Shown here: positions 4,253 through 20,627 of the stretch, one piece after another
How positions within the stretch are numbered: position 1 is the first letter of the stretch
Layout: every line of letters starts with the position of its first letter
Source of the DNA: Verrucomicrobiota bacterium
GTDB taxonomy: Bacteria; Verrucomicrobiota; Verrucomicrobiia; Verrucomicrobiales; Verrucomicrobiaceae
DNA: 33,769 nucleotides
Reading direction: 5' to 3'
NCBI GenBank assembly: GCA_026397715.1
Contig: JAPLUN010000656.1
Span: forward strand, 1-33,769
Notes under the pieces: model-generated
Databases searched by the model: none
Told to the model about the DNA's origin: nothing
What the model saw: only the letters and a program-made list of their open reading frames with translations
Program-made: the position numbers and the translations under genes

Positions 4253-4519
4253 GTTGGGAGAGTTGGCGGAAAGGTGATGTGCGATATAAGCAACTGACCC
4301 GAGGCGAGGCGATTACAATTTTGCAGATCGTCTTCAATGCAATTAGATGGGCCTAGTTGCGCGTGCCGCAGAGGTTAAATAAATTCCTGATCGCCGGGGT
4401 GGGGGAGGATTGAAAAACCGAGATTCGGAATGTTCGCACGGTTTATTTTTGGGTGAGGAGAGGGATGGCAGGTTGCGCGAAAGGCGGCTTTGAGGGCGTG
4501 ATATGAACCGTGAGAAGCA
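4253..4519. promoter_or_regulatory. Divergent intergenic region between the flotillin operon and the PUR-family gene
   Basis: Together with the promoter to its right this is a 355-base gap between divergently transcribed genes. I see no credible coding region; a short plus-strand frame at 4094-4297 is a shadow of the YqiJ-like gene. The leftward promoter of the flotillin operon must lie here, but I could not pick a convincing -35/-10 pair. The stretch 4370-4390 (gttaaataaattcc) is locally AT-rich, and 4393-4412 is a G-rich run. Confidence 0.4.
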
Positions 4520-4547
4520 TTGACAACCCCGGCGCTGCTCCTAGAAT
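4520..4547 (+). promoter_or_regulatory. Sigma-70-type promoter of the PUR-family gene
   Basis: TTGACA at 4520-4525 is a perfect -35 element. TAGAAT at 4542-4547 matches the -10 consensus at five of six positions, with a 16-base spacer. The predicted transcription start near 4554 leaves a leader of about 50 bases before ATG 4608. It is the best promoter match I found in the window. Confidence 0.75.
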
Positions 4548-4607
4548 CGGCATCGAATTCACCCAGAACAAAGTACAGCGAATCGTCAGTCAGTGGAGGT
4601 TACCGGC

Positions 4608-4850
4608 ATGAGGAACACAGAATTTGAAGACGAACGGCGTCCGCCCAATCCGCCGCTGCATTCCGAGAAAATCGTCACGGATCGGAAGATTTTTTTCCTG
4701 GATCTCAAGGAGAATGATCGCGGCAAATTCATCAAGATCACCGAGGACGTTCGCGGCCGCCGTGACACGATCATTCTGCCGATCGACGCCGCGCAGGAGT
4801 TCCTGGACGCCATGATGCGGACGGTGGACGCTGCGAGTGTGGATGAGTGA
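4608..4850 (+). CDS. PUR-family (DUF3276) small nucleic-acid-binding protein
   Basis: 80 residues when started at ATG 4608, which has a good Shine-Dalgarno site (GGAGG at 4595-4599, 8 bases upstream). The GTG at 4593 is rejected because it would use that ribosome site as coding sequence. The core, about residues 19-72 (HSEKIVTDRKIFFLDLKEN, GKFIKITEDVRGRRDTIILP, then AAQEFLDAMM), matches the single PUR repeat of DUF3276 proteins, related to eukaryotic Pur-alpha and Borrelia BpuR. These bind single-stranded nucleic acid. A four-strand sheet plus helix is expected. The strong promoter and ribosome site suggest good expression. Target nucleic acids cannot be read from the sequence. Confidence 0.8.
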   Translation: MRNTEFEDERRPPNPPLHSEKIVTDRKIFFLDLKENDRGKFIKITEDVRGRRDTIILPIDAAQEFLDAMMRTVDAASVDE

Positions 4851-4855
4851 GTTCG

Positions 4856-4957
4856 TTACACGAACCTGATCTCGTGCTTCTGCCCTTGCTCGTCATGCGC
4901 GGGATTGAGTGATCCCAACTCGAAATCAGCGCGGTCGAAGTCGATGCGGACAATGCT
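4856..4957 (-). pseudogene. 3'-end remnant of a metallophosphoesterase gene
   Basis: Read leftward, this stretch encodes about 34 codons ending in a stop at 4858-4856. The last 30 residues match the C-terminus of the intact metallophosphoesterase at 6415-7341 at about 21 positions (for example LNPAHDEQGQKHEIRFV here against LNPAHEEHGQKHVIKFV there). By eye the DNA differs at about 20 of 98 positions. Upstream of 4957 the similarity stops, and no long open frame continues in this frame. It therefore looks like the tail of a lost paralogue, or of a duplicated copy, left behind just after the PUR-family gene. Confidence 0.75.
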
Positions 4958-5055
4958 CTGGTGTGCAGTGACGCTTTTTTCATTACTCTGGCGAACGCAA
5001 CCTCCAAATCTGATGGCTTGCTGTGGTTTTAAAATCTGAGCAGAATGGCTCAGCC

Positions 5056-6384: not shown

Positions 6385-6414
6385 TCCGCACGCGAAGTCC
6401 ACTTCAGTCTTTCC

Positions 6415-7341
6415 TCACACGAACTTGATCACATGCTTCTGCCCGTGCTCCTCGTGGGCGGGATTGAGCGCACGGAGTTCGAACTCGGCACGGTCTGAAT
6501 TGATGCGGACGATGACCCAGCCGTTCGGGCGTTTGGGGTCGAAGGTGTAGGCGACGGGCGGGAGATTGATGAGCGGAAGGCCGGTCTTCTCGTGTTTCGT
6601 TTTCAGCCAGGTGTGGGTGTGGCCGTAGATGTAGCCCTGCACCTTGGGATAGGCGGCGAGGAGATCGAAGAGAGCATCGCTGTCCTGCAGGCAGGAGCCT
6701 TTGCCTTTGTCATTCATGCTGGGCTGCATTGGATTGTGATGCGCCACGATGAAGGTGGGCTTGTTGGGCGCGTTGCGCAGTTCGCGTTCGATCCACACGA
6801 GCTGGGGTTCGCCCAGCAGACCGGGGGTTTTGTTCACGAGGTCGAGGGAGTCGAGCAGGATCCAATTCACCTGGGCGCTGGTGACGGTGGCGACGTGCTT
6901 GTCCGGCACGTTCATGGGCCGCTCGGCGTTGGGCGGCGGCGGGCCGATGATGGCGTTGAGGAAGTTGTTGCGGTGGTCGTGGTTGCCGAGGGTGCAGTGA
7001 ATCTGGATGGACTGTTCGCGCAGCGCCTGAATGCAGTGGGTGAAGGTGACGTAGTCCTCCGTTTTGCCTTCGAGGTAGGCGCAGTCGCCGTTGACGATGA
7101 GGCCAAAGGGCTTCTGGCCGATCTTGAGCACCTGATTGGCGCAGCGGCGCAGATTTTCCGCCATGCAGGCGCCACGCGCGACGAGCGCCTCGTCCTGGGC
7201 GATGTGGGGGTCGGAAAACAGGACCCAGGTCTGTTCAGGAATCTCAAGCGCGGGAAGCTGCGTGGCGAGTGCGCCCAGAGCAGCGGCGGTGCCGTGCTGC
7301 AAAAAGTTGCGGCGGGTGAGAGGGGGGAAGGTGATTGGCAT
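6415..7341 (-). CDS. Tat-exported calcineurin-like metallophosphoesterase
   Basis: 308 residues from ATG 7341. An upstream TTG at 7392 is in frame but would place 17 residues before a clear Tat signal. The N-terminus has the twin-arginine motif TRRNFLQ (residues 9-15) and a following hydrophobic stretch to about residue 31. The metallophosphoesterase metal-site motifs occur in order: D44-P-H46, G-D86, GNHD at 119-122, VAHHN in the middle, and GHTHTW near the C-terminus. This predicts a two-metal phosphohydrolase acting outside the cytoplasm. The substrate (nucleotide, phosphodiester, phosphoprotein or lipid) cannot be told. It lies downstream of upp on the same strand with a 54-base gap. A truncated relative of its 3' end lies at 4856-4957. 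Confidence 0.9.
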   Translation of the reverse strand: MPITFPPLTRRNFLQHGTAAALGALATQLPALEIPEQTWVLFSDPHIAQDEALVARGACMAENLRRCANQVLKIGQKPFGLIVNGDCAYLEGKTEDYVTFTHCIQALREQSIQIHCTLGNHDHRNNFLNAIIGPPPPNAERPMNVPDKHVATVTSAQVNWILLDSLDLVNKTPGLLGEPQLVWIERELRNAPNKPTFIVAHHNPMQPSMNDKGKGSCLQDSDALFDLLAAYPKVQGYIYGHTHTWLKTKHEKTGLPLINLPPVAYTFDPKRPNGWVIVRINSDRAEFELRALNPAHEEHGQKHVIKFV

Positions 7342-7395
7342 GGGAAGGAATGAAACGCTGCTTGAGGGCCGGATCGTGCGAACAGGAAGCAAACT

Positions 7396-8028
7396 TCAGG
7401 TGCCGAAATAGCGGTCTCCGGCATCGCCGAGGCCGGGGACGATGTAGCACTTGTCGTTCAGGCCGGAATCAATGGCGGCGGTGACGATGGCCACATCGGG
7501 ATGAGCACGCTGCATGGCGGCCAGTCCTTCAGGGCAGCTCACCACGCAGATCATGGTGATGCGCATGGCTCCGGCCTCCTTGAGCTGGCGTGCGGCCTCG
7601 CAGGCGCTGCCACCTGTGGCAAGCATGGGGTCCAGGAGGAACACATCTGCGGTAGAAAGGCTGGCGGGCAGATTCGCATAGTAGGCATGCGGCAGGGCGG
7701 TTTCCTCATTTCGCCTGATGCCCACATGGGCGACGACGGCGTCAGGCACGAGCGGCAGGATACCATCCAGCAAACCCAGGCCGGCGCGCAGGATGGGCAC
7801 GCAGACAAGCGGGCGTGCGAGCTGTGCGCCCACGGTTTGCTTCAGCGGTGTCTGCACTTCAATTTCGCGCACTGGGAGCTCGCGGGTGGCTTCGAGGAAG
7901 AGAAGGCGCGCGAGGTGGTTCAGATGCCGCCGAAACTCATGCGATGGCGTGTCGACAGCACGGATGGCGGCGAGATGGCACTGTGCCAAAGGATGCTGAA
8001 CGACGACAACGGGCTGCATGCCGGGCAT
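7396..8028 (-). CDS. upp: Uracil phosphoribosyltransferase
   Basis: 210 residues from ATG 8028 (ATG 8019 is the other in-frame choice); E. coli Upp has 208. It converts uracil and PRPP to UMP in pyrimidine salvage. The PRPP-binding motif appears as DPMLATGGSA, the mid-region has PILRAGLGLLDG and RNEETALPHAYY, and the C-terminus GLGDAGDRYFGT is the uracil-binding tail of the family. The open frame continues upstream to 8295, but that extension has no family similarity and overlaps the divergent lipoprotein gene, so it is left out. The gene is divergent from the lipoprotein gene at 8097 with 68 bases between them. Confidence 0.96.
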   Translation of the reverse strand: MPGMQPVVVVQHPLAQCHLAAIRAVDTPSHEFRRHLNHLARLLFLEATRELPVREIEVQTPLKQTVGAQLARPLVCVPILRAGLGLLDGILPLVPDAVVAHVGIRRNEETALPHAYYANLPASLSTADVFLLDPMLATGGSACEAARQLKEAGAMRITMICVVSCPEGLAAMQRAHPDVAIVTAAIDSGLNDKCYIVPGLGDAGDRYFGT

Positions 8029-8096
8029 TCTGCCGCATTTGCCCGTGCTGGCAAAGTTTTCCACCACCGGGTTGACGGTCATGCTACCCTGCAGGC

Positions 8097-8585
8097 ATGA
8101 AAACACGATTCTGTGTGCCTGCGCTGCTCGCTCTTTCCCTGGTCGCTTGTGACAGCGTACCGAGAGGAGACGGTTCGAGTTATTATTACCCGTCGGCCAA
8201 CCTCCCGGAGGCCGCTTCGCGCAGCAGCCCCAGCCAGAGCATCGCCAGCATGGCGGGCAGCCGCGGAGCTCCCGTGCCGCGGGGTGGGTATGCACCGGGT
8301 TCCGGACCGACGGCGATGCCGCAAGGGAACCAGTTCATGTACCATCAGAATGTGTCAGGCCCCTTTGGCAGCCGCAGTTCGAGCGGTGTCATCAATGCTT
8401 ACGGCGGGGTGCAGAGCTATCAGACCATTGGCAATATGCCGGTCTATCCCGGAATGGCGGTTCCGTACAACAACCAGCGCTACAACGGCAGGATGCCAAC
8501 GCAGCCGGTGTACGTGCCCGGTGTCGGCGGTGCTCAGGGCTATTACATGAACCCGAGCACCGGGGCGCGGGTGCCGGGGCCGTGA
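8097..8585 (+). CDS. Low-complexity lipoprotein
   Basis: 162 residues. The N-terminus is a lipoprotein signal: KTR, a hydrophobic run, then the lipobox LVAC with the modified cysteine at residue 19. The mature part is rich in Gly, Ser, Pro, Tyr, Asn and Gln (SSYYYPSANLPE, SGPFGSRSSSGV, YNNQRYNGRMPTQPVYVPG) and is probably disordered or extended. No domain is recognised. It is expected to be anchored in the outer or inner membrane. Eleven bases separate it from the next gene, so the two may be co-transcribed. No strong ribosome site was seen. Confidence 0.7.
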   Translation: MKTRFCVPALLALSLVACDSVPRGDGSSYYYPSANLPEAASRSSPSQSIASMAGSRGAPVPRGGYAPGSGPTAMPQGNQFMYHQNVSGPFGSRSSSGVINAYGGVQSYQTIGNMPVYPGMAVPYNNQRYNGRMPTQPVYVPGVGGAQGYYMNPSTGARVPGP

Positions 8586-8596
8586 AAAGATAAGCT

Positions 8597-9151
8597 ATGA
8601 AACTTTCAGTCATCCATGTGGGTGTAGGATCCAGAGGAATGTGGTTCATTTGGGTGCTGGGCCTGTACACGCTCTTTTCGCTCCAACTAAATGCTGCGAA
8701 GCAAGCGACAGTTAACCGCACCGCCGAAGCCTTGGCCGGCGTGGTTGCAGATGAAAAAGCCCTTCCGGCGGCTCGATTGGATGCGCTGAAGGCATTGTTC
8801 AGCAAGCACTTCAAGCCACAGGGGACGCTGGCAGAAACCGCCGACTTTTTCAAGTATTGCCGCTGGATCAAGAAAGGAGACTGGGAGGTCCTTTATGCTT
8901 TTGCTGGCTCGTGGCCATTTGAGGATACAGATATTTTTTCCGCAACACCTGAGAGGACCCAACTGGTGGCAGTTCGCATGAATCCCTCAGGCTTAAATTT
9001 TCCGAATGGGGTTTGGCTGGGTTTCCCTCGGGGCGAAAAGATTACCGAGCCAGAGATCGAGATGATCTTGTCCGGAAAATGTCCAGAGCGATTGGCAAAG
9101 ATCCGTCTGTTGGATGGTTCTTTTGAATACCACTCGAACAATCAGGAGTGA
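8597..9151 (+). CDS. Hypothetical exported protein
   Basis: 184 residues. A hydrophobic segment at about residues 15-32 (MWFIWVLGLYTLFSLQL, then NAA) looks like a signal peptide or anchor. The following part is helical (NRTAEALAGVVADEKALPA), then a compact region with the aromatic-rich stretch WIKKGDWEVLYAFAGSWPF and the C-terminal FPRGEKITEPEIEMILSGK. I recognise no family. It follows the lipoprotein gene by 11 bases and converges on the DedA gene. ATG 8639, just before the hydrophobic run, is an alternative start. Confidence 0.6.
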   Translation: MKLSVIHVGVGSRGMWFIWVLGLYTLFSLQLNAAKQATVNRTAEALAGVVADEKALPAARLDALKALFSKHFKPQGTLAETADFFKYCRWIKKGDWEVLYAFAGSWPFEDTDIFSATPERTQLVAVRMNPSGLNFPNGVWLGFPRGEKITEPEIEMILSGKCPERLAKIRLLDGSFEYHSNNQE

Positions 9152-9167
9152 TGATGTTCAACTGCTG

Positions 9168-9821
9168 TCAGGATTTGTCAGCCTCTTTCTGTGCTCGTTT
9201 GGCCTCTGCTTTGTGTTTGAGCACTTCAAAGACGATGGGCAGCATGGAGACGACGATGATGAGAACGAAAACCAGCTTGAGGTTGTTTTTGATGATCGGG
9301 ATGCTGCCGAGGAAGTAGCCGGCGATGCTGAAGCTGAGCACCCAGACCAAGCCGCCGCCGAGGCTGTAGACCAAGAAGCGGCGGTAATCCATGCGACCAA
9401 AGCCGGCGGTGAAGGGGGCAAAGGTGCGCACGATGGGCACGAAGCGCGCGAGGATGATGGCCTTGCCGCCGTGCTTGACGAAGAAGGCCTCGGTCTTCGC
9501 GAGGTAGTCGCGCTTGAACCAGCGCTGGTTGACGATCCAGCCGCCCGCCTTGCGGCCGATCCAGTAGTTCAGGTTGTCACCGATGATGGCGGCGCACATG
9601 AGCAGCGGAATGATGAGTTCGATGCGGATGAGCCCCTGGGCGGACAAGGCGCCCACGGCAAACAGAAGCGAATCTCCTGGCAGAAAGGGCATGATCACCA
9701 GGCCGGTCTCACAGAAAATGATCGCGAACAGCAGGCCGTAAATCAGCGAACCATGATCCTGCGCGAAGGCTTGCAGGTGTTTGTCGATGTGCAGGGCGAA
9801 ATCGAGAATCTGGGAGATCAT
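9168..9821 (-). CDS. DedA-family (VTT/SNARE-associated) membrane protein
   Basis: 217 residues from ATG 9821, chosen because MISQILDF fits the usual DedA N-terminus; ATG 9869 would add 16 residues. The order of features is that of DedA proteins: an amphipathic N-terminus, a re-entrant/hydrophobic region with CETGLVIMPFLPGDSLLFAVG, GDNLNYWIGRKAG, then the signature ARFVPIVRTFAPFTAGFGRM, and two C-terminal membrane helices. Family members act in the inner membrane in lipid carrier (undecaprenyl phosphate or phosphatidylethanolamine) recycling and proton-dependent envelope homeostasis. Which lipid this one handles cannot be read from the sequence. It converges on the hypothetical gene at 8597. 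Confidence 0.92.
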   Translation of the reverse strand: MISQILDFALHIDKHLQAFAQDHGSLIYGLLFAIIFCETGLVIMPFLPGDSLLFAVGALSAQGLIRIELIIPLLMCAAIIGDNLNYWIGRKAGGWIVNQRWFKRDYLAKTEAFFVKHGGKAIILARFVPIVRTFAPFTAGFGRMDYRRFLVYSLGGGLVWVLSFSIAGYFLGSIPIIKNNLKLVFVLIIVVSMLPIVFEVLKHKAEAKRAQKEADKS

Positions 9822-9888
9822 GGACGGCGAATGTCCGGCGTCAGAGCGGTGCGGCAAACGAAAATTCATGCCGATCCCGACAGGTGCA

Positions 9889-9918
9889 CAAAAAAGCCGG
9901 GGCGTGATGCCCCGGCTT
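9889..9918 (-). terminator. Rho-independent terminator of the lipoprotein gene at 9952
   Basis: Perfect inverted repeat AAGCCGGGGC (9894-9903) / GCCCCGGCTT (9909-9918) with a 5-base loop. Read leftward it is followed by a U tract given by the A run at 9890-9895. It begins 34 bases after the stop of the minus-strand lipoprotein gene. Confidence 0.9.
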
Positions 9919-9951
9919 CGCTGGATTGATTCTGCCGATCTGTGGGGTGGC

Positions 9952-10728
9952 TTACTTCAGCTCTGCGGTGACCACTTTTTTGCCTTCGATCTTGAGGCCA
10001 TCGACGTTTTTGAATTTTTCTGCCACCTCCTCGGGGCTCAATCCGGTGTCAGCCGATTCCATGAAGCCGGTGAAGACATCCGCGTTGTCCATGATCTTGT
10101 CGAACTGGATGTCCATGTAGCTGATGGTGCCATCGTTGAGATTTGTGGCGTTGGAACTGGTGATGCCATTCGCCCCTTTGACTGCCACGGCCACGTGCAT
10201 GCCGGCAAACATGGGCTTCATCATCGCCATCTGCGATTTCATCATGGCGATTTGTTCCGGGGTCTTCTTCGGCTTGGCAGCATCGCCGCCTTTCTTTTTA
10301 TCTGAGTCCGGATTGGTGATGGTAAGGGTGGAGCCGCTGAGCGCGAAGGTCATCGGCTGCGTGGTGGAAGGCTTGCCTTCCTGCTCTGGCTCAAACGGCG
10401 CGTATTTCAGCTTGGAGATATCAGCGACGGCGAAGACCACTTTCACACCGCTTTTGCCATCGGGTGTCTTCACTTCTTCATGGGATTTGACGGTGACGCC
10501 CTCGCCGAGTTTCTTCGCGCGTTCCGCGGCCTTCTCCTTGTCCATGACGAGGCCCTTGAGCTGATCACCCTGGCCGCCCTGCATCATGGCAGCCAGCTGA
10601 GCACCCAAGAGAACACTCTCCTCGATGGTGGCCGTGCCGTCTTTGCTGACGATCACGGTGGATTTGATTTCAATGCAGGAGGCCAGCACAAAAGCGACCG
10701 CCGCGAGGAGGAGGGATGAGATTTTCAT
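9952..10728 (-). CDS. Lipoprotein of unknown function
   Basis: 258 residues. The N-terminus MKISSLLLAAVAFVLASC is a lipoprotein signal with the lipobox LASC and Cys at residue 18. The following strand-rich stretch (IEIKSTVIVSKDGTATIEES) looks like a beta-sandwich start of the type seen in proteins that sum a quadratic or test statistic, but I cannot name a family. The middle has a lysine-rich, low-complexity segment (DKKKGGDAAKPKKTPEQ) and a methionine-rich helix. The end contains ISYMDIQFDKIMDN and LSPEEVAEKFKNVDGL. It is a single gene with its own terminator and is divergent from the CII-like gene. Confidence 0.7.
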   Translation of the reverse strand: MKISSLLLAAVAFVLASCIEIKSTVIVSKDGTATIEESVLLGAQLAAMMQGGQGDQLKGLVMDKEKAAERAKKLGEGVTVKSHEEVKTPDGKSGVKVVFAVADISKLKYAPFEPEQEGKPSTTQPMTFALSGSTLTITNPDSDKKKGGDAAKPKKTPEQIAMMKSQMAMMKPMFAGMHVAVAVKGANGITSSNATNLNDGTISYMDIQFDKIMDNADVFTGFMESADTGLSPEEVAEKFKNVDGLKIEGKKVVTAELK

Positions 10729-10827: not shown

Positions 10828-10857
10828 AAATGGGCTACTTTCTGAAACAAGTCAGGC

Positions 10858-11343
10858 ATGGACTCCCATGAAGTGATCAGCAAGGCCGTCGAGCAAACCA
10901 GCTTCAAAGAGGTGGCGGCGCAGATGGGCGTCTCCCTCTCGCTTGCCTACAAGTGGTCCCAGCCGGACGAGCAGCAGGGCAGCGGCACCTCCAATCCGCT
11001 GGATCGCGTGCGCCAGCTGTTTGAGATCACCAAGGATGCTCAGCTCATCCAGTGGCTTTGCCACAAGGCGAACGGGGTCTTTGTGCAGAATCCCACCAGC
11101 GGAGGTCCGCGTGGCATGGAGCTGATGCCTGCCACGCAGGAAATCGTCCAGCAGTTTGCCGATCTCCTCACGGCCATCAGCAAGGCGGCCTCTGACAACC
11201 GCATCAACAAGGAAGAGGCGGAACACATCCGCGGAGTGTGGGATGAGCTGAAACGTTTCACCGAAGGCTTCGTCCGCCTGTGTGAGAAGGGCGACTTTGC
11301 CCACCTTGCGGACGAGATCAAAACGCATCAGGGGCACAAATAA
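10858..11343 (+). CDS. Phage CII-like (Phage_CP76-type) helix-turn-helix regulator
   Basis: 161 residues. The N-terminal half carries a helix-turn-helix: FKEVAAQMGVSLSLAYKW (about residues 16-33), followed by NPLDRVRQLFEITKDAQLIQWLC and then ANGVFVQNP, an arrangement I recognise from the CII/CP76 regulatory protein family. The C-terminal part is helical and charged (QEIVQQFADLLTAISKAA, KEEAEHIRGVWDELK) and probably mediates oligomerisation. It is likely a DNA-binding regulator. No other phage gene is near, so it reads as a chromosomal, domesticated family member. The cupin gene starts 21 bases downstream and may be co-transcribed. Confidence 0.75.
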   Translation: MDSHEVISKAVEQTSFKEVAAQMGVSLSLAYKWSQPDEQQGSGTSNPLDRVRQLFEITKDAQLIQWLCHKANGVFVQNPTSGGPRGMELMPATQEIVQQFADLLTAISKAASDNRINKEEAEHIRGVWDELKRFTEGFVRLCEKGDFAHLADEIKTHQGHK

Positions 11344-11364
11344 CGAACCTAATTGCTGGAAGCC

Positions 11365-11733
11365 ATGGCCACCACCGGTCCGCTGCTGATCCGCCACGAA
11401 GGCCACACGCCACGCGAGCGCAGCACCTGCGGCTGGCGGGATCGTTTGATAAGCCGTGAGGATGCGGGCCTGTCTCCTGCTGCCTGGGCGCATGCGGTGG
11501 ACATCGACGGCGCGAAGCTCCATTACCACAAACGCTCCACGGAACTCTACTACGTCCTCGATGGCGGTGGCACTGTGGTGCTGGACGGCATCGAACAGCC
11601 TGTGAGTCAGGGTTCGCTAGTGCACATCCCGCCCGGCGTCGTGCATGGTGCGCGTGGGAAGATGCGCGTCCTCGTCGTGGGCATCCCGGACATCGCGGAA
11701 GATGATTATTTCGAGGTGGAGGAGCCGGACTAA
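11365..11733 (+). CDS. Small cupin-domain protein
   Basis: 122 residues from ATG 11365, with TGGAAG just upstream acting as a weak ribosome site. A TTG at 11353 is less likely. It is a single-domain cupin: motif 1 appears as LHYHKRSTELYYVLDGGG and motif 2 as GSLVHIPPGVVHGA. The two histidines of motif 1, the glutamate (TELYYVL) and the histidine of motif 2 (VVHGA) form the usual metal site. The closest known shapes are mannose-6-phosphate-isomerase-like or sugar-binding cupins. Enzymatic or binding function cannot be decided. It is cytoplasmic, with an acidic C-terminus (EDDYFEVEEPD). Confidence 0.82.
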   Translation: MATTGPLLIRHEGHTPRERSTCGWRDRLISREDAGLSPAAWAHAVDIDGAKLHYHKRSTELYYVLDGGGTVVLDGIEQPVSQGSLVHIPPGVVHGARGKMRVLVVGIPDIAEDDYFEVEEPD

Positions 11734-12208: not shown

Positions 12209-12463
12209 ATGAGCGAGAACGAACGCAACACTCTGGTGCCTGACATCCGTGAAGTCCTTTCCCAGCATGGTCGGTTCCCCGTGGAGAATCTGACTGAGGC
12301 TGATGACCTTTATAATGCCGGCCTGACGTCTTTGGCGACGGTGGCGGTGATGCTGGCGCTGGAAGACAAGTTCAATGTCGAGTTTCCCGACAATCTGATC
12401 GGTCGCCGCACTTTCAAGAGCATCGAATCCATCGCGGAGGCGATCACGAAGCTCGCGGCCTAG
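12209..12463 (+). CDS. Acyl/aminoacyl carrier protein (4'-phosphopantetheine carrier)
   Basis: 84 residues with the four-helix carrier-protein pattern. The phosphopantetheine site is Ser41 in NAGLTSLATVAVMLALEDKF, where the usual DSL is replaced by TSL, as I recall for the carrier proteins that pair with aaRS-like ligases. Helix III follows FPDNLIGRRTFKSIESIAEAI. After modification by a phosphopantetheinyl transferase (none in this window), the thiol would carry an aminoacyl or acyl group. It is the first gene of the operon, with the dehydrogenase-like gene 64 bases downstream and the matching ligase after that. Its divergence from housekeeping AcpP (TSL site, basic LIGRRTFK) argues against a role in fatty acid synthesis. 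No Shine-Dalgarno site is seen before ATG 12209. Confidence 0.9.
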   Translation: MSENERNTLVPDIREVLSQHGRFPVENLTEADDLYNAGLTSLATVAVMLALEDKFNVEFPDNLIGRRTFKSIESIAEAITKLAA

Positions 12464-12527
12464 GCCCGAGCGGTGATGTGCCCCAGTTGTTCAAGCCCGT
12501 ACGAATCCCCACCCCCAATCCAATCCT

Positions 12528-13709
12528 GTGAGCACTCTTTGCAGCACCGAAGTCGATTTTGACGAACTTTTGAAGGAGGTGCATGCGCTGGGCAAATCGG
12601 TGCTTCGTGTTCATGCGGCGGATGTGGACAAGCAGGCGCGCTTTCCGAGCGAGTCGATCGATGCCATGCGCGAGGCGCGTCTGATGAGCGCGTATGTTCC
12701 TGAAGAGTATGGCGGCATGGGGTTGAACCTCGTGCAGGTCGCGAAGATCTGCGAAACTCTGGGTCAGTACTGCGGCTCATCGGCCATGATTTATGCGATG
12801 CACAAGATTCAGGTGGCCTGCCTCGTGCATCATGCCCAGACGTCGGAATTTTTCTGCGACTACCTGCGGCAGTTGGTGGAGGACCAGCGCCTGATGGCCT
12901 CTGCGACGACGGAGATCGGAACGGGTGGAGACCTGCGCTCCAGCATCTGTGCGGTGGAAGTCTCGGGGGATCAGTTCAAACTCACGAAGAAGGCCCCGGT
13001 CATTTCCTATGGTGACTTCGCAGACGAGATTCTGGTGACTTGCCGCAGTGCATCGAACGCGCCGGCGAATGAGCAGGTGCACGTCATGGTGCGCAAAGGA
13101 GAGTACACCGCGGTGCCGCTTTCGACCTGGGACACCATGGGTTTCCGCGGAACCTGCAGCTCGGGCTTTGAGCTGACAGCCACAGGCAACGCGGAGCAGA
13201 TCATTCCGCAGCCTTTCAATGAGATTCTAGGGCAGACGATGCACCCCTACTCGCACATCGTGTGGGGCGCGCTTTGGTCGGGCATTGCGATGGATGCAGT
13301 GAACCAGGCCCGTGCCTTCGTGCGTGCTGAAGCGCGCAAGACGCCCGGTGAAACACCCATCTCGGCCATCCGCCTCGGCGAGGTCGATCAGGTGCTGCAA
13401 GTGATGAGAAACAATGTGACGGCCATGGCCCGTGAGTACGACGAACTGCGCAGCCGCGACTGCCCGGGAGTGTTTGAAGAGTTTGGCTTCTCCATCCGCA
13501 CGAACAATCTGAAGCTGTCCACCTCGCAGCAGTTCGTGGACATCGTCGGCCGCGCGATGCTGATCTGCGGCATCTCGGGTTATCGCAACGATTCCAAATT
13601 CAGCATCGCCCGCCATCTGCGTGATGCCTATGGCGCGGCACTGATGGTCAACAACGACCGCATTTTGAAACTGAACGCCACGATGCTGATGGTTCACAAG
13701 GAAGGCTGA
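12528..13709 (+). CDS. Acyl-CoA-dehydrogenase-like flavoprotein
   Basis: 393 residues, GTG start at 12528. It has the acyl-CoA dehydrogenase fold order: N-terminal helical domain (VPEEYGGMGLNLVQVAKICETLGQ), FAD/substrate-binding strand domain (MASATTEIGTGGDLRSS, WDTMGFRGTCSSGFELT), and C-terminal helical bundle (STSQQFVDIVGRAMLICGISGY). The C-terminal RDAYGAALMVNND aligns with the classical RDA...YEGT motif, but the glutamate catalytic base of that motif is replaced (Val374). It may use another residue or carry out different chemistry. Located between the carrier protein and the amino acid:carrier-protein ligase, a carrier-bound aminoacyl thioester is a plausible substrate, by analogy with prolyl-S-carrier-protein dehydrogenases. 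That substrate is inferred. Confidence 0.88.
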   Translation: MSTLCSTEVDFDELLKEVHALGKSVLRVHAADVDKQARFPSESIDAMREARLMSAYVPEEYGGMGLNLVQVAKICETLGQYCGSSAMIYAMHKIQVACLVHHAQTSEFFCDYLRQLVEDQRLMASATTEIGTGGDLRSSICAVEVSGDQFKLTKKAPVISYGDFADEILVTCRSASNAPANEQVHVMVRKGEYTAVPLSTWDTMGFRGTCSSGFELTATGNAEQIIPQPFNEILGQTMHPYSHIVWGALWSGIAMDAVNQARAFVRAEARKTPGETPISAIRLGEVDQVLQVMRNNVTAMAREYDELRSRDCPGVFEEFGFSIRTNNLKLSTSQQFVDIVGRAMLICGISGYRNDSKFSIARHLRDAYGAALMVNNDRILKLNATMLMVHKEG

Positions 13710-13712
13710 TTT

Positions 13713-14648
13713 ATGACGTGCACCTCGACCGCAACTCTCCCCATCACCGAGGCCTATCAGGCGTTTCTCGACCAGGTCACTGAGGCCGGGCTGCTCGTGC
13801 CGCTTGGCGTGCGGGGTGTCTATGGATACAACGGTGTGTTTGAAGGCGTGCTGCAGAGCTTTGACCGCCTGATCACACGACGCGCAGCGCACTTTCAGGC
13901 GGATATTTTGCGGTTGCCCGGGGTGCTGAGCCGCGAGCACTATTTGAAGACCAGCCACATCGAAAACTTTCCGGATCTGATGGGGTCCGTGCACAGCTTC
14001 ATGGGGCGTGATCGCGAACATTTGGGGATGCTCACGAAGCGCGAGAAGGGCGAAGAATGGACCCAGGACCTCGTTCCGAGCGCCTTGATGCTGACACCCG
14101 CATGCTGCTATCCTCTGTATCCCACAGTGACTGGTACGCTGTCGAGCGAGGGCAAGACGGCGGATCTGTTCTCGCAGGTGTTCCGGCATGAGCCATCGAT
14201 CGACCCTTGCCGCCTGCAGATCTTCCGTCAGCGCGAATTCGTCCGCATTGGCACTGCCGAACAGGCGCTGGAGCATCGCAAACAATGGATCGAACTGGGC
14301 CGGGACATTCTGGCAGAGGTCGGTCTCGGCGTGGAGATCGTGGTCGCCAACGACCCATTCTTTGGGCGTGGGGGACGTGTGATGGCGGCGTCGCAGAAGG
14401 ATCAGGACTTGAAGCACGAGTTCACCTTTGCCGTGGCTTCAAATGAAAAGCCGACGGCGATCGCCTCGACCAACTGCCACATGGATTACTTCGGCAAAGC
14501 CTTCGACATCAAGCTGCCGAACGGTGAGGCAGCGCATTCAGCCTGCATTGGTTTTGGGATGGAACGCATCGCGCTGGCCTTGTTCAAGCATCACGGATTC
14601 GATCCTGACCGCTGGCCGTATGAAGTGAAAAACGCCCTGGAACTATGA
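13713..14648 (+). CDS. Amino acid:[carrier protein] ligase (class II aaRS-like)
   Basis: 311 residues. It resembles the catalytic core of atypical (methanogen-type) seryl-tRNA synthetase without a tRNA-binding domain, as in the Bradyrhizobium Bll0957 family, which activates Gly or Ala with ATP and loads it on a carrier protein thiol. Motif 2 is seen around RHEPSIDPCRLQIFRQREFV (about residues 158-177) and motif 3 as GFGMERIALALF (280-291). The expected zinc ligands are present: Cys131 (or the adjacent Cys132), Glu175 and Cys278, close to the positions I recall for Bll0957. The gene starts 3 bases after the dehydrogenase stop, and its end overlaps the DUF1839 start by 4 bases, so the products are probably made together. 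The cognate amino acid cannot be decided from sequence alone. Confidence 0.92.
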   Translation: MTCTSTATLPITEAYQAFLDQVTEAGLLVPLGVRGVYGYNGVFEGVLQSFDRLITRRAAHFQADILRLPGVLSREHYLKTSHIENFPDLMGSVHSFMGRDREHLGMLTKREKGEEWTQDLVPSALMLTPACCYPLYPTVTGTLSSEGKTADLFSQVFRHEPSIDPCRLQIFRQREFVRIGTAEQALEHRKQWIELGRDILAEVGLGVEIVVANDPFFGRGGRVMAASQKDQDLKHEFTFAVASNEKPTAIASTNCHMDYFGKAFDIKLPNGEAAHSACIGFGMERIALALFKHHGFDPDRWPYEVKNALEL

Positions 14649-15622
14649 GCCGGCCGTTTCCAGCGCTTGATCCGCAAACCTACACGCGACATCGCCTGCA
14701 TACGCAGGAGCGCGAGTGGGCGGAGACGAACTGCTACGTCGATGTTTGGATCGAAGTCCTGCATGCCCGTGGCCTGGAGCCGATAGCGGCCCTGCCGTTC
14801 ACGCTGGGCATCGACTTTGAGGGCGACCAGTGGACCTTTTTCAAATACCAGCTGACAGATCTGTATGATCTGTACGCTCTGGATGTGCAAGAACTCGCGA
14901 TCTACCGGCCGCTGACGGCGCACATCGAGGAGCAGCTTTCGCTTGGAAGACCGCTGCTCATTGAGCTGGATTCGTTTTATCTGCCTGACACGGCTGGCAG
15001 CGCCTACCAGCTGGAGCATGTCAAAACGACGGTCGCCATTGCGGAGATCGACATGGAGCAGCAGCGCCTGGGCTACTTCCACGCGCAAGGCTACTACCAC
15101 CTGCATGGGGATGATTTCGCGCATGTGTTTCACCTGCGTGGGGAAAAGAATCCTGCGATTCTGCCTCCTTACTGCGAGATCGTGAAGAGCACCGCCAAGC
15201 TGCCGCTGCAAGGCGAGGCGCTGCTGAATGCATCGCTGGTTCTGTTGAAGCGACAGCTGCAGCGTCTTCCGGAGGTGAACCCCTTCGTGAAGTTCCGCGC
15301 CCGCTTTGAGGCTGACATGCAGTGGCTGATCAACGAACCGATCACCACGTTTCACCAGTACTCCTTTGCCACGCTGCGTCAGTTTGGCTCCTGCTATGAA
15401 CTGGCCGGCACCTACTTGAAGTGGTTGCAGAGCCAGGGCGTGGGCGGGCTGGATGGCGCGATTGAGTCGATCCTCCGGCTTTCCACCGGGGCGAAGACGC
15501 TGCAGTTCCAGCTGGCACGTGCGATGGCGCGAAAAAAGGCGATTGATTTCACGCCTGTCGATCAAATGGCAGAGCACTGGACCCAGGCGATGCAGCAACT
15601 GAAGGACGCGTTTCCCGCGTAA
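14645..15622 (+). CDS. DUF1839 protein, possible Cys/His aminoacyltransferase
   Basis: 325 residues, ATG overlapping the ligase stop by 4 bases. DUF1839 proteins are usual neighbours of aa:carrier-protein ligases, with no assigned activity. The N-terminal half shows NCYVDVW with Cys30, GIDFEGDQWTFFKY, then GRPLLIELDSFYLPD, and YQLEHVKTTVAIAEID with His125 followed by Asp136. This order (Cys, then strand with a conserved D..YLP, then His, then Asp) resembles the BtrH_N/papain-like fold of BtrH, which moves an acyl group from a carrier protein to an aminoglycoside. The C-terminal half is helical (LVLLKRQLQRLPEVNPF, YELAGTYLKWLQSQ). I infer a transferase that takes the aminoacyl group from the carrier protein. 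Structure prediction would be the deciding test. Confidence 0.85.
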   Translation: MSRPFPALDPQTYTRHRLHTQEREWAETNCYVDVWIEVLHARGLEPIAALPFTLGIDFEGDQWTFFKYQLTDLYDLYALDVQELAIYRPLTAHIEEQLSLGRPLLIELDSFYLPDTAGSAYQLEHVKTTVAIAEIDMEQQRLGYFHAQGYYHLHGDDFAHVFHLRGEKNPAILPPYCEIVKSTAKLPLQGEALLNASLVLLKRQLQRLPEVNPFVKFRARFEADMQWLINEPITTFHQYSFATLRQFGSCYELAGTYLKWLQSQGVGGLDGAIESILRLSTGAKTLQFQLARAMARKKAIDFTPVDQMAEHWTQAMQQLKDAFPA

Positions 15623-15627
15623 TCACC

Positions 15628-18132
15628 ATGACGGACCCAGTTCACTTTGCGCCGTGGACATGCTGTGCGCAGGCTCCCGGAGCGAGTGCCGAACCGGCAG
15701 CGGTGCAGGGAGATTGGATTGCTGCCGAGGTTCCGGGCACGGTGGCCTCGGCATTGCGCGCACGCGGTCAGTGGAGTCATCAAAATCCGCCGGATATCGA
15801 TGCGCAGGACTGGTGGTACCGCACGACTTTTACTGCGACAGCGCGAAGTGCTGAAGAGCCTTGTGTCCTGTGCTTCGACGGGCTCGCCTCGCTTGCGGAT
15901 GTGTGGCTCAACGGCGAACTCATTCTAAGCTCGGACAACATGTTTCGCAGCCATCGCGTGGACGTTGCGCGAGTTTTGCGCGATGAGAATGAGCTGGTGA
16001 TCCGTTTTCGTTCGCTCACGGCGGACTTGAAGAAGAAACGTCCGCGTCCGCGCTGGAAAACGAACCTCGTGAACAACCAACAGCTGCGCTGGCAGCGCAC
16101 GAGCCTGCTGGGACGCATTCCTGGCTGGTCCCCGCCCGTGCCTGCCGTGGGGCCATGGCGCGCGGTGAGACTGGAGCGTGCGGCTGTGCTGCTGGCGGAT
16201 ATTCACAAAACTGCATTGCTGGTGGGAGACGAAGGCGTTGTGAGTTTTCGTGCGCGGGTGGATTCGTCGATGAAAATTGCTTCGGCGCGGTTGAACATCG
16301 GTGCGCATTCTGCCGAGCTTTTGTGTGAGGATGATGTCCTGAGTGGTGAAATTCGCATTCAGAAGCCTGAACTGTGGTGGCCGCATACGCATGGCGTGCC
16401 GGCGTTGTACAACGGCAAGGTGATCATCGAGACGAGTGCAGGGCTGCATGAGTTTCCGCTGGAGCAAACGGGCTTCCGCAGCATCGAGGTTTGCAACGAT
16501 CCCGGGTTTGCGATTCATGTGAATGGAGAGCGCGTGTACTGCCGGGGTGCGTGCTGGACGACGAACGACATTTTTACCCTCGGTGGAACAGCGGCGTCGC
16601 TGCGGCATGATCTCACACTCGCGCGTGATGCGGGCATGAACATGCTGCGCATCGGCGGCACGATGGCCTATGAGAGTGATGCATTCTACCGCCTCTGCGA
16701 TGATCTGGGCATTCTTGTCTGGCAGGACTTCATGTTTGCCAACATGGACTATCCCGTGGATGACGCGGCGTTTGCTGAAAACATCACGATTGAGGCGACG
16801 CAGCAGTTAGACCGTCTCGCGCAGCACCCGTGTGTCGCGGTTTACTGCGGCAACAGTGAGATCGAACAGCAGGCGGCGATGCTGGGCATGCCGCGTGAAC
16901 TTTGGCGGAACCGATGGTTTGGAGAGCAACTGCCGACGCTGTGCAGCCAGCATCATCCAGGCACGGCGTATGTGCCTTCATCGCCAAGCGGCGGGGTGCT
17001 GCCTTTTCACACTCGAACCGGCGTGACACATTATTATGGCATCGGTGCGTATCTGCGCTCTTTGCGTGAGCTGCGGCAGGCGGATGTGAAGTTCACCAGC
17101 GAGTGCCTGGGCTTTGCGAACATTCCGGAGCCTGAGGCGATTGATGAGATCATGGGCGGTCTTATGCCGGTGATGCACCACCCGCGCTGGAAGCAGCGCG
17201 TGCCGCGTGACACGGGAACCGGATGGGATTTTGAAGATGTGCGTGATCACTACCTGCGGGAGCTTTTCAATGTCGATCCGGTGACTTTGCGCTCGTTCGA
17301 CATGCCGCGTTATCTGGAACTGAGCCGCGTGGCATCGGGCGAGATGATGGCGCGAACCTTTGCGGAATGGCGCAGCGGTCACAGTCGCAACGCGGGTGCG
17401 CTGGTATGGTTCTACAAGGATCTGTGGCCAGCGGCGGGTTGGGGCATCGTGGACAGCACGGGCGCTCCGAAGGCGGCGTACTATCAGCTTAAGCGTGCAT
17501 GGCAGACGCGGCAGTTAATGATCACGGATGAAGGGCTGGATGGTTTGCATCTGCATCTGAGCAACGAAACGGCCGAACTGGTCGAGGGCTTTGTCGAGGT
17601 GCAGCTGCTGCGCGAGCCGAATGTGGTCGTCGCACGTCACGAGATTGAGATGAAGGTGGAACGGCGCTCGCTGGAGATGCGAAGTGTTGATGAAATTCTC
17701 GGTTCATTTTTTGACGTGAACTATGCGTACCGTTTCGGTCCGCAGTCGCATCATGTGATGATCGCCACCTGGTTCAGCGCCGAGCGTGAGGTCATCAGTG
17801 AGGCGTTTCATCTCACCCGTGCACGTGATCCGGTGGCGCAGCCATTGGCAGCGGAGATGCTGGGCGCCACGGCGGAAGCGCTGGGTGATGGGCGCTACCA
17901 GCTCATGCTCAAGAGCGACCGGTTTTTGCATAGTGTGCGATTGTCGGCCAAGGGATTTTTGCCCGACGACAATTACTTTCATCTGGCCCCGGGCCGGACC
18001 AAGGCGGTATCCTTTAAGCCGACCTCTGGGAAGAGCGGGGCGCTTGAAGTTTATGTTGAGGCCTTGAATGTGGCGGGCGAAATTTCGGTGGAGCCGAGCC
18101 GTGCATCCCACGCAACCCATCATGACACCTGA
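15628..18132 (+). CDS. GH2 beta-mannosidase-like glycoside hydrolase (no signal peptide)
   Basis: 834 residues, starting 5 bases after the DUF1839 stop. Domain order is that of GH2 beta-mannosidases: jelly-roll N-domain with WWYRTTF and LASLADVWLNGELILSSDNMF, two immunoglobulin-like domains, the TIM barrel, then a C-terminal beta domain. The acid/base is Glu411 in GNSEIEQ and the nucleophile Glu492 in TSECLGF. Both are present, so it should be an active retaining enzyme. GVYCRGACW-like and NMLRIGGTMAYES segments form the barrel entrance. No export signal is seen (MTDPVHFAPWTCC), so it appears cytoplasmic, which is unusual beside polysaccharide genes. It might act on a small sugar conjugate made inside the cell. 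The exact sugar specificity is not readable. Confidence 0.9.
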   Translation: MTDPVHFAPWTCCAQAPGASAEPAAVQGDWIAAEVPGTVASALRARGQWSHQNPPDIDAQDWWYRTTFTATARSAEEPCVLCFDGLASLADVWLNGELILSSDNMFRSHRVDVARVLRDENELVIRFRSLTADLKKKRPRPRWKTNLVNNQQLRWQRTSLLGRIPGWSPPVPAVGPWRAVRLERAAVLLADIHKTALLVGDEGVVSFRARVDSSMKIASARLNIGAHSAELLCEDDVLSGEIRIQKPELWWPHTHGVPALYNGKVIIETSAGLHEFPLEQTGFRSIEVCNDPGFAIHVNGERVYCRGACWTTNDIFTLGGTAASLRHDLTLARDAGMNMLRIGGTMAYESDAFYRLCDDLGILVWQDFMFANMDYPVDDAAFAENITIEATQQLDRLAQHPCVAVYCGNSEIEQQAAMLGMPRELWRNRWFGEQLPTLCSQHHPGTAYVPSSPSGGVLPFHTRTGVTHYYGIGAYLRSLRELRQADVKFTSECLGFANIPEPEAIDEIMGGLMPVMHHPRWKQRVPRDTGTGWDFEDVRDHYLRELFNVDPVTLRSFDMPRYLELSRVASGEMMARTFAEWRSGHSRNAGALVWFYKDLWPAAGWGIVDSTGAPKAAYYQLKRAWQTRQLMITDEGLDGLHLHLSNETAELVEGFVEVQLLREPNVVVARHEIEMKVERRSLEMRSVDEILGSFFDVNYAYRFGPQSHHVMIATWFSAEREVISEAFHLTRARDPVAQPLAAEMLGATAEALGDGRYQLMLKSDRFLHSVRLSAKGFLPDDNYFHLAPGRTKAVSFKPTSGKSGALEVYVEALNVAGEISVEPSRASHATHHDT

Positions 18133-20011
18133 ACCACAGTCGCATGCGCCTGAAGACGCTTCGTGGGTGGGTCAGGCCGGGCGGAGCGCGTTCTATTTTG
18201 AAAGCGGTGGCAGGTCGTTGTTTGCCTGGTTGCACCGACCTGCGCGCGCTGTGGCTGAGCATGGGGTGTTGATCTGTCCGCCACTTGGGCACGAGCAGGT
18301 TCATTCACATCGTGCGCTGCGACACCTCGCGGAAAGACTGGCGGCGCAAGGTTTTGCGGTGATGCGGTTCGACTATCATGGCACCGGTGACTCCGAGGGT
18401 GCAGAAAACGATCCGCAGCATCTGGCCACGTGGCAGGCCAACGTGAGTGATGCCGTGGATTGGATGCGTCGTGAAGGGGGCTGCCTGAAGATCAGCCTCG
18501 TGGGCCTGCGTCTAGGAGCGTCGCTCGCGGTGCTTTATGCAGAGCAGCACGAGGTGGAAAGCCTGGTGCTGTGGGCTCCTATTGTGAAAGGCCGGCGCTA
18601 CGTGCGCGAACTCACCGCCTTGGGCCAGACCGCGCAGTTGACCGCAGGCAATGAATCGGCAGGGATTGAAGCCATGGGATTTGTTTATCCGAATGAGCTG
18701 ACTGGCGAGCTCACGCAAATGGATCTGTTGTCCCACCCGGTGCTCTGTCAGCAGGTGTTGATTGCATCCAGTGCGAACGCTGCGGGTGATTCGGCGTTAT
18801 TGGAACATCTGGCGAAGCAGGGCGTGTCCGTGGAGTCCATGGCGTTGACTGGTTACGAGGGGATGATGGCCGAACCCCATGACACCCAGGTGCCACATGA
18901 CGCGCTACGAAGGATTGTGGACTGGATGAAGGCCAAGGCACAGCCTGTCGTGACAGGCAGGAGCAACATATCCGCTGCAGGTGCGACGACGATGCTGACG
19001 CACGGTCCTGACGCGGTGCGCGAGACCCTTCATCAGATCAGCAGCACGCCCGATTTGTTTGGCATCATGTCGGAGCCGGTGGAGCGCCCGAAGTCATTGC
19101 CGTGGATCGTGATGCTCAACGCCGGGGCGGCGTACCGGATTGGTCCGGGGCGCATCCATGTGGCCATGGCGCGGCAGCTTGCAGTGCTCGGCTATCCCTG
19201 TCTGCGGCTCGACATCAACGGCATCGGTGACAGCGTGGCCGCTGATCCTGAAAAAGAAAATGACACCTACGCGGCGACCGCCTTCCGTGATGTGAGTCTT
19301 GTGTGTGACTACTTGAATGAGCAGCAACCTGGCCGCTCCATTGTTCTTCTGGGGCTCTGCTCAGGTGCCTACGTGGCCTTTCAGTCGGCGGCCCAACTGC
19401 CACATTCCGCCATCATCGAGAGCATCCTTATCAATCCCCTCGTCTTTTACTGGAAGGAGGGCATGACGATCAATGACACGAACACCGATCAGCTGGTGGC
19501 GTGGCGTGAGTATTGGAATGCGATCTTCAAATGGAGCCAATGGAAGATGCTGCTCACCGGCAGGACGCGCACGGGGTTTGCCGGCTCGCTCAAACGTTTT
19601 GCAGGTCACGTGAAGCCGCGTTTTCTAAGTTCTGGCAGACCTGCTCCGCAGAAGGAAAAGTCCGCACTGCAGAGCGGCTGCTCACATCCGGCGCGCAAGG
19701 ACCTGCCGGGAGATTTGAGCCGCATCGCTGCTGCGGAGCGCAAGCTGGCCATGTTTGTTTCTGACAACGAGCCCGGGCATTTTCTGCTGATGTACCAGGC
19801 GCGTCGCAAAGCCAGGCAGCTGATGAAGCAGGGCCTGCTGCAGTGCCGCTTCATCCACCAGGCGGACCACACTTTCTCCACCGCTCAGGCGCGTCAGACC
19901 TTTTATCAGTCACTCACGGACTATCTGCATCACCGCTTTGGTTCCGGAAGGATTGAGAAGCGGGCACCGGATGAGGATTGCAAACTGCTGGCAGCTTCGC
20001 TGACGGCGTGA
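18122..20011 (+). CDS. Two-domain alpha/beta-hydrolase (exosortase-associated-hydrolase-like)
   Basis: 629 residues from ATG 18122, overlapping the GH2 gene by 11 bases. GTG 18068 would add 18 residues but lies far inside GH2. Two alpha/beta-hydrolase domains are fused. Domain 1 (about residues 25-270) has ICPPLGHEQVHSHRALRHLA, RFDYHGTGDSEG and the elbow GLRLG (128-132), with Arg130 where the serine nucleophile should be. Domain 2 (about 325-605) has RLDINGIGDS and GLCSG (411-415), with Cys413 at the nucleophile site, and a later Asp548 (FVSDNE) and His583 (ADHTF). Domain 1 is probably inactive or non-hydrolytic. Domain 2 could be a Cys-dependent hydrolase or acyltransferase. The pattern recalls hydrolases of exosortase-linked polysaccharide loci. 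It is the last gene of the operon. No terminator was seen, and it converges on the lipoprotein gene. Confidence 0.85.
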   Translation: MTPEPQSHAPEDASWVGQAGRSAFYFESGGRSLFAWLHRPARAVAEHGVLICPPLGHEQVHSHRALRHLAERLAAQGFAVMRFDYHGTGDSEGAENDPQHLATWQANVSDAVDWMRREGGCLKISLVGLRLGASLAVLYAEQHEVESLVLWAPIVKGRRYVRELTALGQTAQLTAGNESAGIEAMGFVYPNELTGELTQMDLLSHPVLCQQVLIASSANAAGDSALLEHLAKQGVSVESMALTGYEGMMAEPHDTQVPHDALRRIVDWMKAKAQPVVTGRSNISAAGATTMLTHGPDAVRETLHQISSTPDLFGIMSEPVERPKSLPWIVMLNAGAAYRIGPGRIHVAMARQLAVLGYPCLRLDINGIGDSVAADPEKENDTYAATAFRDVSLVCDYLNEQQPGRSIVLLGLCSGAYVAFQSAAQLPHSAIIESILINPLVFYWKEGMTINDTNTDQLVAWREYWNAIFKWSQWKMLLTGRTRTGFAGSLKRFAGHVKPRFLSSGRPAPQKEKSALQSGCSHPARKDLPGDLSRIAAAERKLAMFVSDNEPGHFLLMYQARRKARQLMKQGLLQCRFIHQADHTFSTAQARQTFYQSLTDYLHHRFGSGRIEKRAPDEDCKLLAASLTA

Positions 20012-20036: not shown

Positions 20037-20627
20037 TCATTTCAAAGGCGGAACGCGGAAAACCTTCCCGGTATAAGGACATTGAGACATCTGACCCGCA
20101 TTGAAATCTCGCACATCGATCAGGCGTCCGCTGGGATCGAACGGGCTCTTCACGACTCCACGCTTTCCGGGAGCCCAGGTGGCAAAGGGAATATCCGCCG
20201 GATTCAGATCTTGCGCAGGCGTCGCGCTCACGGTGGGTTTTGACGCTGATGGTGTTGTCGAAACCGTGGGCGCGGGTGTCACCGCAGTGCCTGTGCTCGG
20301 CGTGCTCGGTTCCGGAAGTTCGGCAAGCGCGGGCTGGCTTCCCGACGCAGGTGGTTTGTAGCGTTGCATGGCGAGATTCCAATAAGCGTCACGCGCGGCG
20401 TTGGGATCTGGAGGCGGATCTCCTCCTGCAACAGGTGGAGTTTCCCCCGCAGCAGACGCCGCGCCCGCCACGGCTGGTGGAGCACCTTCGGACAAGGCCA
20501 TCTTTTGATCCACACCTGCTGAAGCAGACGGGGCACTTTTGGACAAAGCCTTCTTCGGCCCTGCACAAGAAGTGAGGCCAAGGATGGTCAGGCTCAAGAG
20601 AGAGACAGAATGGAACAGGCGGATCAC
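20037..20627 (-). CDS. Proline/alanine-rich lipoprotein
   Basis: 196 residues, GTG start at 20627. The lipoprotein signal MIRLFHSVSLLSLTILGLTSC has the lipobox LTSC and Cys at residue 21. The next 110 residues are low-complexity (Ala, Pro, Ser, Thr), likely an extended spacer. The C-terminal about 55 residues (IPFATWAPGKRGVVKSPFDP, then CPYTGKVFRVPP) look like a folded, conserved unit with one Cys-Pro-Tyr-Thr-Gly-Lys motif. I have seen such tails in verrucomicrobial lipoproteins, but I cannot give a function. It is convergent with the operon of the double hydrolase. Confidence 0.7.
   Translation of the reverse strand: MIRLFHSVSLLSLTILGLTSCAGPKKALSKSAPSASAGVDQKMALSEGAPPAVAGAASAAGETPPVAGGDPPPDPNAARDAYWNLAMQRYKPPASGSQPALAELPEPSTPSTGTAVTPAPTVSTTPSASKPTVSATPAQDLNPADIPFATWAPGKRGVVKSPFDPSGRLIDVRDFNAGQMSQCPYTGKVFRVPPLK

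Follow-up and report, generated by a model that had tools for sequence, protein, structure and literature searches.

A conserved six-gene bacterial cassette proposed to transfer carrier-bound amino acids to amine acceptors

The window analysed here is a stretch of 33,769 nucleotides from a Verrucomicrobiota bacterium (GenBank assembly GCA_026397715.1, contig JAPLUN010000656.1), in which six consecutive open reading frames (ORFs) lie on the plus strand, with inter-gene gaps of 64, 3, -4, 5 and -11 bases as calculated from the ORF coordinates of the window (Table 1). A preliminary description had placed six genes on a single strand with exactly these gaps, and both the coordinates and the families are confirmed. 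The six-gene unit looks like a self-contained transcription unit. It is bounded on both sides by genes of the opposite strand (10852-11529 and 20037-20627), and the exopolysaccharide (EPS) genes that lie beyond therefore form a separate unit. In a promoter and terminator scan, promoter-like matches were at chance level and terminator-like ones barely higher. In the region from 930 to 10728 the window also contains an Imm33-like ORF (930-1463, minus strand) and a series of ORFs with no Pfam match, namely 1478-3562, 3590-4252 and 9952-10728 on the minus strand, and 5023-6384, 6592-7353, 7501-8100, 8097-8585, 8597-9151 and 9114-9929 on the plus strand.

Table 1. Genes of the cassette and the polysaccharide genes that follow it, in window coordinates
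Feature	Position	Strand	Family match or gene content
Carrier protein, 84 aa	12209..12463	+	PF00550 and NF005480, above cut-off
Acyl-CoA-dehydrogenase-fold flavoprotein	12528..13709	+	PF02771/PF00441, above cut-off
Amino acid:[carrier protein] ligase, class II aaRS-like	13713..14648	+	NF005479
DUF1839, proposed carrier-protein-dependent aminoacyltransferase	14645..15622	+	PF08893
GH2 glycosidase, beta-mannosidase-like	15628..18132	+	PF22666
Double alpha/beta hydrolase	18122..20011	+	Partial TIGR03101/TIGR03100 matches, below cut-off
Polysaccharide genes	from 20934		3-keto-disaccharide hydrolase, polysaccharide deacetylase, GT4, weakly GH123-like, FemAB/GNAT-type, Wzc-like

The carrier protein matches NF005480 with 95.1 bits (cut-off 72), and its predicted phosphopantetheine serine, S41 in the motif GLTSLAT, is conserved in at least 93% of 50 aligned rows. 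The ligase scores 399 bits against NF005479, the amino acid--[acyl-carrier-protein] ligase model (cut-off 357), and its nearest solved structure is Bll0957 (4h2w, E 4e-64). Its 311 residues align only with residues 305-505 of the 527-residue archaeal SerRS 3w3s and, judged from this alignment, the enzyme is the catalytic core of an archaeal-type SerRS without the tRNA-binding domain. Ligases of this family load an amino acid onto a carrier protein, and Bll0957 and Atu2573 are the members reportedly characterised by Mocibob in 2010 and 2013. The residues C132, E175 and C278, all conserved, are candidate ligands that we take to be the metal-binding Cys-Glu-Cys set. Position 280, which presumably governs the size of the accepted amino acid, is Gly in 61 of 61 sequences and Ala in Bll0957; from this glycine and the presumed role of the position, alanine is possible as the amino acid. 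Three genomes (L038, L042 and L047), all MAGs and maybe incomplete, keep the other cassette genes but gave no match to the ligase, and the amino-acid-adenylation protein encoded nearby in L038 suggests that it has replaced the ligase there.

In the flavoprotein, the N- and C-terminal acyl-CoA dehydrogenase domains match above cut-off and the middle domain below it. Its AlphaFold2 model (pLDDT 91.6) is matched over the whole length by acyl-CoA dehydrogenases, ColB1 (Z 40.5) and TdsC/DszC, with dehydrogenases and monooxygenases scoring alike in this fold comparison. ColB1 dehydrogenates a carrier-bound cysteine. Near the C-terminus, inspection by eye locates a motif VNNDRI where dehydrogenases have YEGT, with N376, D377 and R378 invariant; most profile alignments to solved structures end before this motif. 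No obvious glutamate was seen by eye in the sequence at the two usual catalytic-base positions. The flavoprotein is proposed to oxidise the carrier-bound amino acid.

The DUF1839 protein matches PF08893 with 396 bits (cut-off 22.5), and its AlphaFold2 model (pLDDT 93.3) superimposes on CcbD over 288 aligned residues (Z 19.7, rmsd 3.5, Foldseek probability 1.00), and on AziU3 (Z 19.0) and CtaG (Z 17.5) over 270-290 residues in the Foldseek and VIA-align comparisons, after which the Z score drops to about 8 and to unrelated proteins. AziU3 and CtaG are enzymes of azinomycin and closthioamide synthesis. Five residues of DUF1839, C30, H125, H146, D109 and D157, are invariant in 41 aligned rows. 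Single-sequence and profile searches against PDB sequences returned neither CcbD nor any other relative of DUF1839, so the protein may work like CcbD but is not called a member of its family. In CcbD itself, a site resembling that of Cys proteases accepts proline from a carrier protein and transfers it to the amino group of a thiooctose (PMC12945683), which is the amino sugar of celesticetin. Moreover, a survey of papain-like enzymes placed DUF1839 in that superfamily, with a C-(T/S)-H triad that differs from the Cys-His-Glu triad of CcbD, and suggested a role in glycan processing from genomic context (PMC10318531). On the basis of the model, DUF1839 is proposed to be a papain-like carrier-protein-dependent aminoacyltransferase with the CcbD/AziU3/CtaG fold and Cys30 as the candidate nucleophile.

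The GH2 protein contains the galactose-binding domain PF22666 (105 bits), and its nearest solved structures are beta-mannosidases (5n6u, E 2e-58). The nucleophile E492 is present in 64 of 64 sequences and the acid/base E411 in 59 of 64, the remainder having Asp (four) or Gln (one), and no signal peptide is apparent by eye. As judged from sequence, it is a GH2 enzyme with both catalytic glutamates, beta-mannosidase-like by its nearest solved relatives. In three other genomes (L014, at G003:C40:164801-167260, G743 and G745) the GH2 match contains one TGA each within the alignment, and these copies may be broken, early-ending or misassembled.

The last protein of the cassette had been described as a double hydrolase of the exosortase style. 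Its two halves do resemble the corresponding TIGR pair, the N half TIGR03101 (hydr2) and the C half TIGR03100 (hydr1), but both stay below the cut-offs (122.5 against 202.75 and 147.8 against 168.45, respectively), and the first half is without the usual nucleophile. In fact, an Arg (R130) occupies the nucleophile elbow of the N half, GLRLG, in 45 of 52 sequences. The C half has C413 (52/52), D/E550 (51/51; Glu here, Asp in the relatives) and H583 (51/51). Cys-type acyltransferases such as PHA synthases have a comparable Cys-Asp-His site. For the exosortase XrtA, the genome gave only matches below cut-off. In one locus (L046:366-5308), a parallel set encoding an amino-acid-adenylation protein, a carrier, a flavoprotein, hydr2 (GLRLG) and hydr1 (GLCAG) lies directly upstream of the DUF1839 cassette, and the hydrolase pair is thus associated with carrier-bound amino acids in two different contexts.

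Within the family of the source organism, DUF1839 is encoded in 10 of 68 genomes and the six-gene order is identical in all 10, one of which belongs to another genus; the nearest DUF1839 relatives in the named collection are Verrucomicrobia MAGs (92-96% identical). The same six genes in identical order are also found on plasmids of Azospirillum and Mycetohabitans. Since the order is kept in the nine other genomes of the family and on these plasmids, the arrangement is not due to chance. A search beyond the phylum returned at least 533 stretches encoding DUF1839, and the best 80 were analysed; these scored best against a query in which sequences of the window's type were strongly represented, and the counts that follow describe that sample, restricted to loci with enough flank. 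The 80 loci were assigned to Verrucomicrobiota, Planctomycetota, Pseudomonadota, Acidobacteriota, Actinomycetota, Gemmatimonadota, Myxococcota, Chloroflexota and Abditibacteriota, many of them on MAG contigs that are possibly misbinned, and the six genes in kept order are spread over at least eight phyla. Upstream of DUF1839, the ligase gene adjoins directly in 67 of 70 loci, with the flavoprotein gene in 69 and the carrier gene in 66; in 13 other loci an AcpS-type PPTase gene lies just upstream of the carrier gene. Phyllobacterium and Reyranella-type loci also carry the cassette, and in several cases it is located on plasmids. The preliminary description had proposed to survey GH2 and the double hydrolase as conserved neighbours of the ligase and DUF1839, with a lack of such conservation in relatives as the refuting outcome, and that outcome did not occur: GH2 is directly 3' of DUF1839 in 57 of 63 loci, and the hydrolase follows immediately, in the same orientation, in 33 of 58 loci and lies elsewhere within the locus in 14.

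Co-occurrence was examined in 76 genomes of the order that holds Vineibacter (G733) and Reyranella (G734). Ligase (above cut-off), DUF1839 and GH2 are found in the same 29 genomes and in none of the 47 others, one of which gives a ligase match of 73 residues, a fragment that stays below cut-off. The double hydrolase is present in 27 of the 29 cassette genomes and in one of the 47 others, and in these exceptions the cassette genes or the match lie near contig ends. The corresponding Fisher P values, 1e-21 and 4e-17, ignore shared ancestry and serve only as a guide. In four genomes (G733, G734, G808 and G809) the genes for GH2 and the hydrolase lie together on a contig other than that of the rest of the cassette, so that physical linkage does not explain the co-occurrence. 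Moreover, in the family of the source organism a GH2 orthologue (at least 68% identity) occurs in exactly the 10 DUF1839 genomes and in none of the 58 others, and the distances of the five long proteins are correlated (r 0.83-0.94, with no species-tree baseline). Gene order and co-occurrence rule out GH2 or the hydrolase as hitchhikers, and the single functional unit, GH2 included, that had been postulated earlier gains support from gene order in many phyla and from the perfect co-occurrence across the 76 genomes.

The first three genes also occur without the others. On a plasmid of Priestia megaterium (NZ_CP085444.1, L149:1869-15692), genes for a PPTase, carrier, flavoprotein and ligase lie without DUF1839 or GH2 beside those for an ATP-grasp protein, an alanine permease, an alanine racemase and a D-Ala-D-Ala ligase; judged by its gene content, this cluster appears to make a product derived from alanine, and some of its genes may serve self-protection. 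Likewise, a plasmid of Streptomyces sp. NBC_00557 (L150:6314-8951) carries a carrier, a flavoprotein and a distant ligase relative (29% identity) inside a PKS/NRPS cluster. The trio without DUF1839 in these two organisms suggests that oxidation takes place at the carrier-bound stage, and since the trio occurs alone, loading and oxidation look like a portable module, with DUF1839, GH2 and the hydrolase as a delivery module.

As regards the acceptor, glycan genes recur near the cassette in unrelated lineages. Of the 39 full-length loci, 6 contain a gene for a polyprenyl-phosphate sugar transferase (PF02397), where genome counts predict 0.42; about three lineages are represented, and at the lineage level P is about 0.009. 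Furthermore, 15 loci contain GT4 genes, the hydrolase of Rhizobium sp. NLR16a is fused to a Polysacc_synt_3 flippase domain (L021:13874-17185; 44 bits, cut-off 23), and in Rhizobium sp. Root482 a homologue of this domain directly adjoins the hydrolase (L090:15291-16817). In the window's genus the EPS operon lies beside the cassette. This neighbourhood had been taken in the preliminary description as a sign of a glycan acceptor; the EPS operon is, however, a separate unit and no constant partner, being divided from the cassette by an opposite-strand gene and absent at the cassette of the family's other genus (L014), which no glycan gene flanks. Some Azospirillum, Phyllobacterium and Reyranella-type loci likewise have no glycan gene nearby.

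Taken together, these observations can be read as a ribosome- and tRNA-independent aminoacyl-transfer pathway, in which an amino acid is loaded, oxidised and transferred to an amine, probably of a glycan-destined sugar, a reading for and against which we see the balance as even. The substrate adenylated by the ligase would be a small amino acid, with alanine and glycine as the probable choices; it would be loaded onto the phosphopantetheine of the carrier, where the flavoprotein would oxidise the aminoacyl group. DUF1839 would then take the acyl group onto Cys30 and, in a CcbD-like ping-pong reaction, transfer it to an amine acceptor, an amino sugar being the likeliest. GH2 might trim or transfer a beta-linked sugar of the conjugate, while the double hydrolase of Cys type might move or remove an acyl group on the sugar conjugate. 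In the last and weakest step, the conjugate would probably be incorporated into a glycan or glycolipid for export. Against this reading speaks that a GH2 acting as an intracellular hydrolase is not in itself enough to account for a synthesis; so do the loci with no glycan neighbour, the lack of a sequence match between DUF1839 and CcbD, the differing published triad, the missing obvious catalytic-base glutamate of the flavoprotein and the three genomes with no ligase match. The full version, a multi-phylum pathway that brings an oxidised aminoacyl thioester to amino sugars of exported glycans by means of a papain-fold transferase, together with a double hydrolase of Cys type and a GH2 that is intracellular and obligatory, is put forward tentatively.

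The product could also be a small soluble metabolite, such as an aminoacylated amino sugar or a pseudo-disaccharide like lincosamide or mycothiol, from which a protecting or carrier sugar would be cleaved by GH2 and which the double hydrolase would finish or release. This is somewhat unlikely in our judgement. It agrees with the closest structural relatives of DUF1839 (CcbD, AziU3 and CtaG), all of which make small molecules, with the patchy distribution within genera (10/68 genomes) and the plasmid location, with the surroundings of the trios in Priestia and Streptomyces, which resemble those of antibiotic genes, and with the several loci that have no nearby glycan gene; the recurrent partners of the polyprenyl-phosphate sugar transferase, GT4 and flippase types, including one fusion, speak against it, as does the lack of a dedicated exporter in the six-gene core.

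Two further explanations are considerably weaker. That DUF1839 and the double hydrolase are thioesterases releasing a keto or imino acid, with GH2 as an unrelated catabolic passenger, would suit the often hydrolytic nature of papain-like and alpha/beta folds and the place of DUF1839 in a protease superfamily, but is improbable, because GH2 co-occurs perfectly even where unlinked and is thus no passenger, and because the full-length matches of DUF1839 are to carrier-dependent transferases, with proteases scoring far lower. Equally hard to credit is a lipid amine or lipid-linked amino alcohol as acceptor, giving an aminoacylated membrane lipid: the parallel-cassette carriers of L046 and L047 resemble those of ornithine-lipid synthesis (NF052616, below cut-off) and the flippase partner fits a lipid-linked product, but the obligatory glycosidase and the glycosyltransferase neighbours favour a sugar moiety and no lipid-synthesis gene is prominent among the annotated recurrent neighbours.

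A transfer to sugar had been predicted before. In a note added in proof, Iyer and Aravind (2010) proposed that the genes of this neighbourhood join an amino acid to the amine of a sugar at the cell surface, and assigned the ligation to Atu2574 (PMC2922099). Their neighbourhood shares with the cassette the ligase family, the carrier, the flavoprotein, the conserved uncharacterised protein Atu2574, which we infer to be the DUF1839 protein from Agrobacterium gene order rather than from a direct match, and a glycosidase; the redox enzyme was called Rossmann-fold, and the double hydrolase, the DUF1839 fold, the co-occurrence and the phylum spread are not mentioned (PMC2922099). The sugar acceptor suggested in the preliminary description is thus a rediscovery of the 2010 prediction, to which support from co-occurrence and from fold is added here, the latter being the newly found whole-length match of the DUF1839 model to CcbD, AziU3 and CtaG. 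In the literature on Atu2573-2576 and bll0957 only passing mentions were found; for instance, Bll0957 and the flavoprotein Bll0958 are listed together with a 3.0-fold change in a phaR mutant (PMC10888616). A review of 2022 continued to describe the role of the amino acid:[carrier protein] ligases as unknown (PMC9437257), as it had been since 2010; the complete set of partners, the fold of the transferase and the obligatory presence of a glycosidase narrow the question. If the acceptor is a surface sugar, the cassette would represent a glycan modification so far unrecognised in many bacteria of soil and plants, rhizobia and agrobacteria among them.

Among the known systems, the lincosamide synthetases (LmbC/N/D and CcbC/Z/D) are alike in that a carrier-bound amino acid is moved to a sugar amine by a Cys transferase, whereas their loading enzyme is an NRPS adenylation domain rather than a ligase of the aaRS-like kind, and they are without GH2 and the double hydrolase. 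BtrH of butirosin synthesis (PF14399) is described as a papain-like carrier-protein:aminoglycoside acyltransferase (PMC10318531); DUF1839 is a separate Pfam family. The exosortase-A-associated hydrolases 1 and 2 (TIGR03100 and TIGR03101) have the GLRLG and GLC(S/A)G motifs in common with the double hydrolase, which differs from them in being fused in a single chain, in scoring below both cut-offs and in the lack of an exosortase in the cassette. Finally, in Dlt D-alanylation (DltA, DltC, DltB and DltD) a carrier-bound amino acid is destined for a surface polymer, as proposed here, but with a different class of ligase, a membrane-bound acyltransferase and an ester linkage in place of the amide proposed for this operon. 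If the proposal is true, the cassette would constitute a further route for amino acids onto cell-surface polymers, beside Dlt and the aminoacyl-tRNA-dependent transferases.
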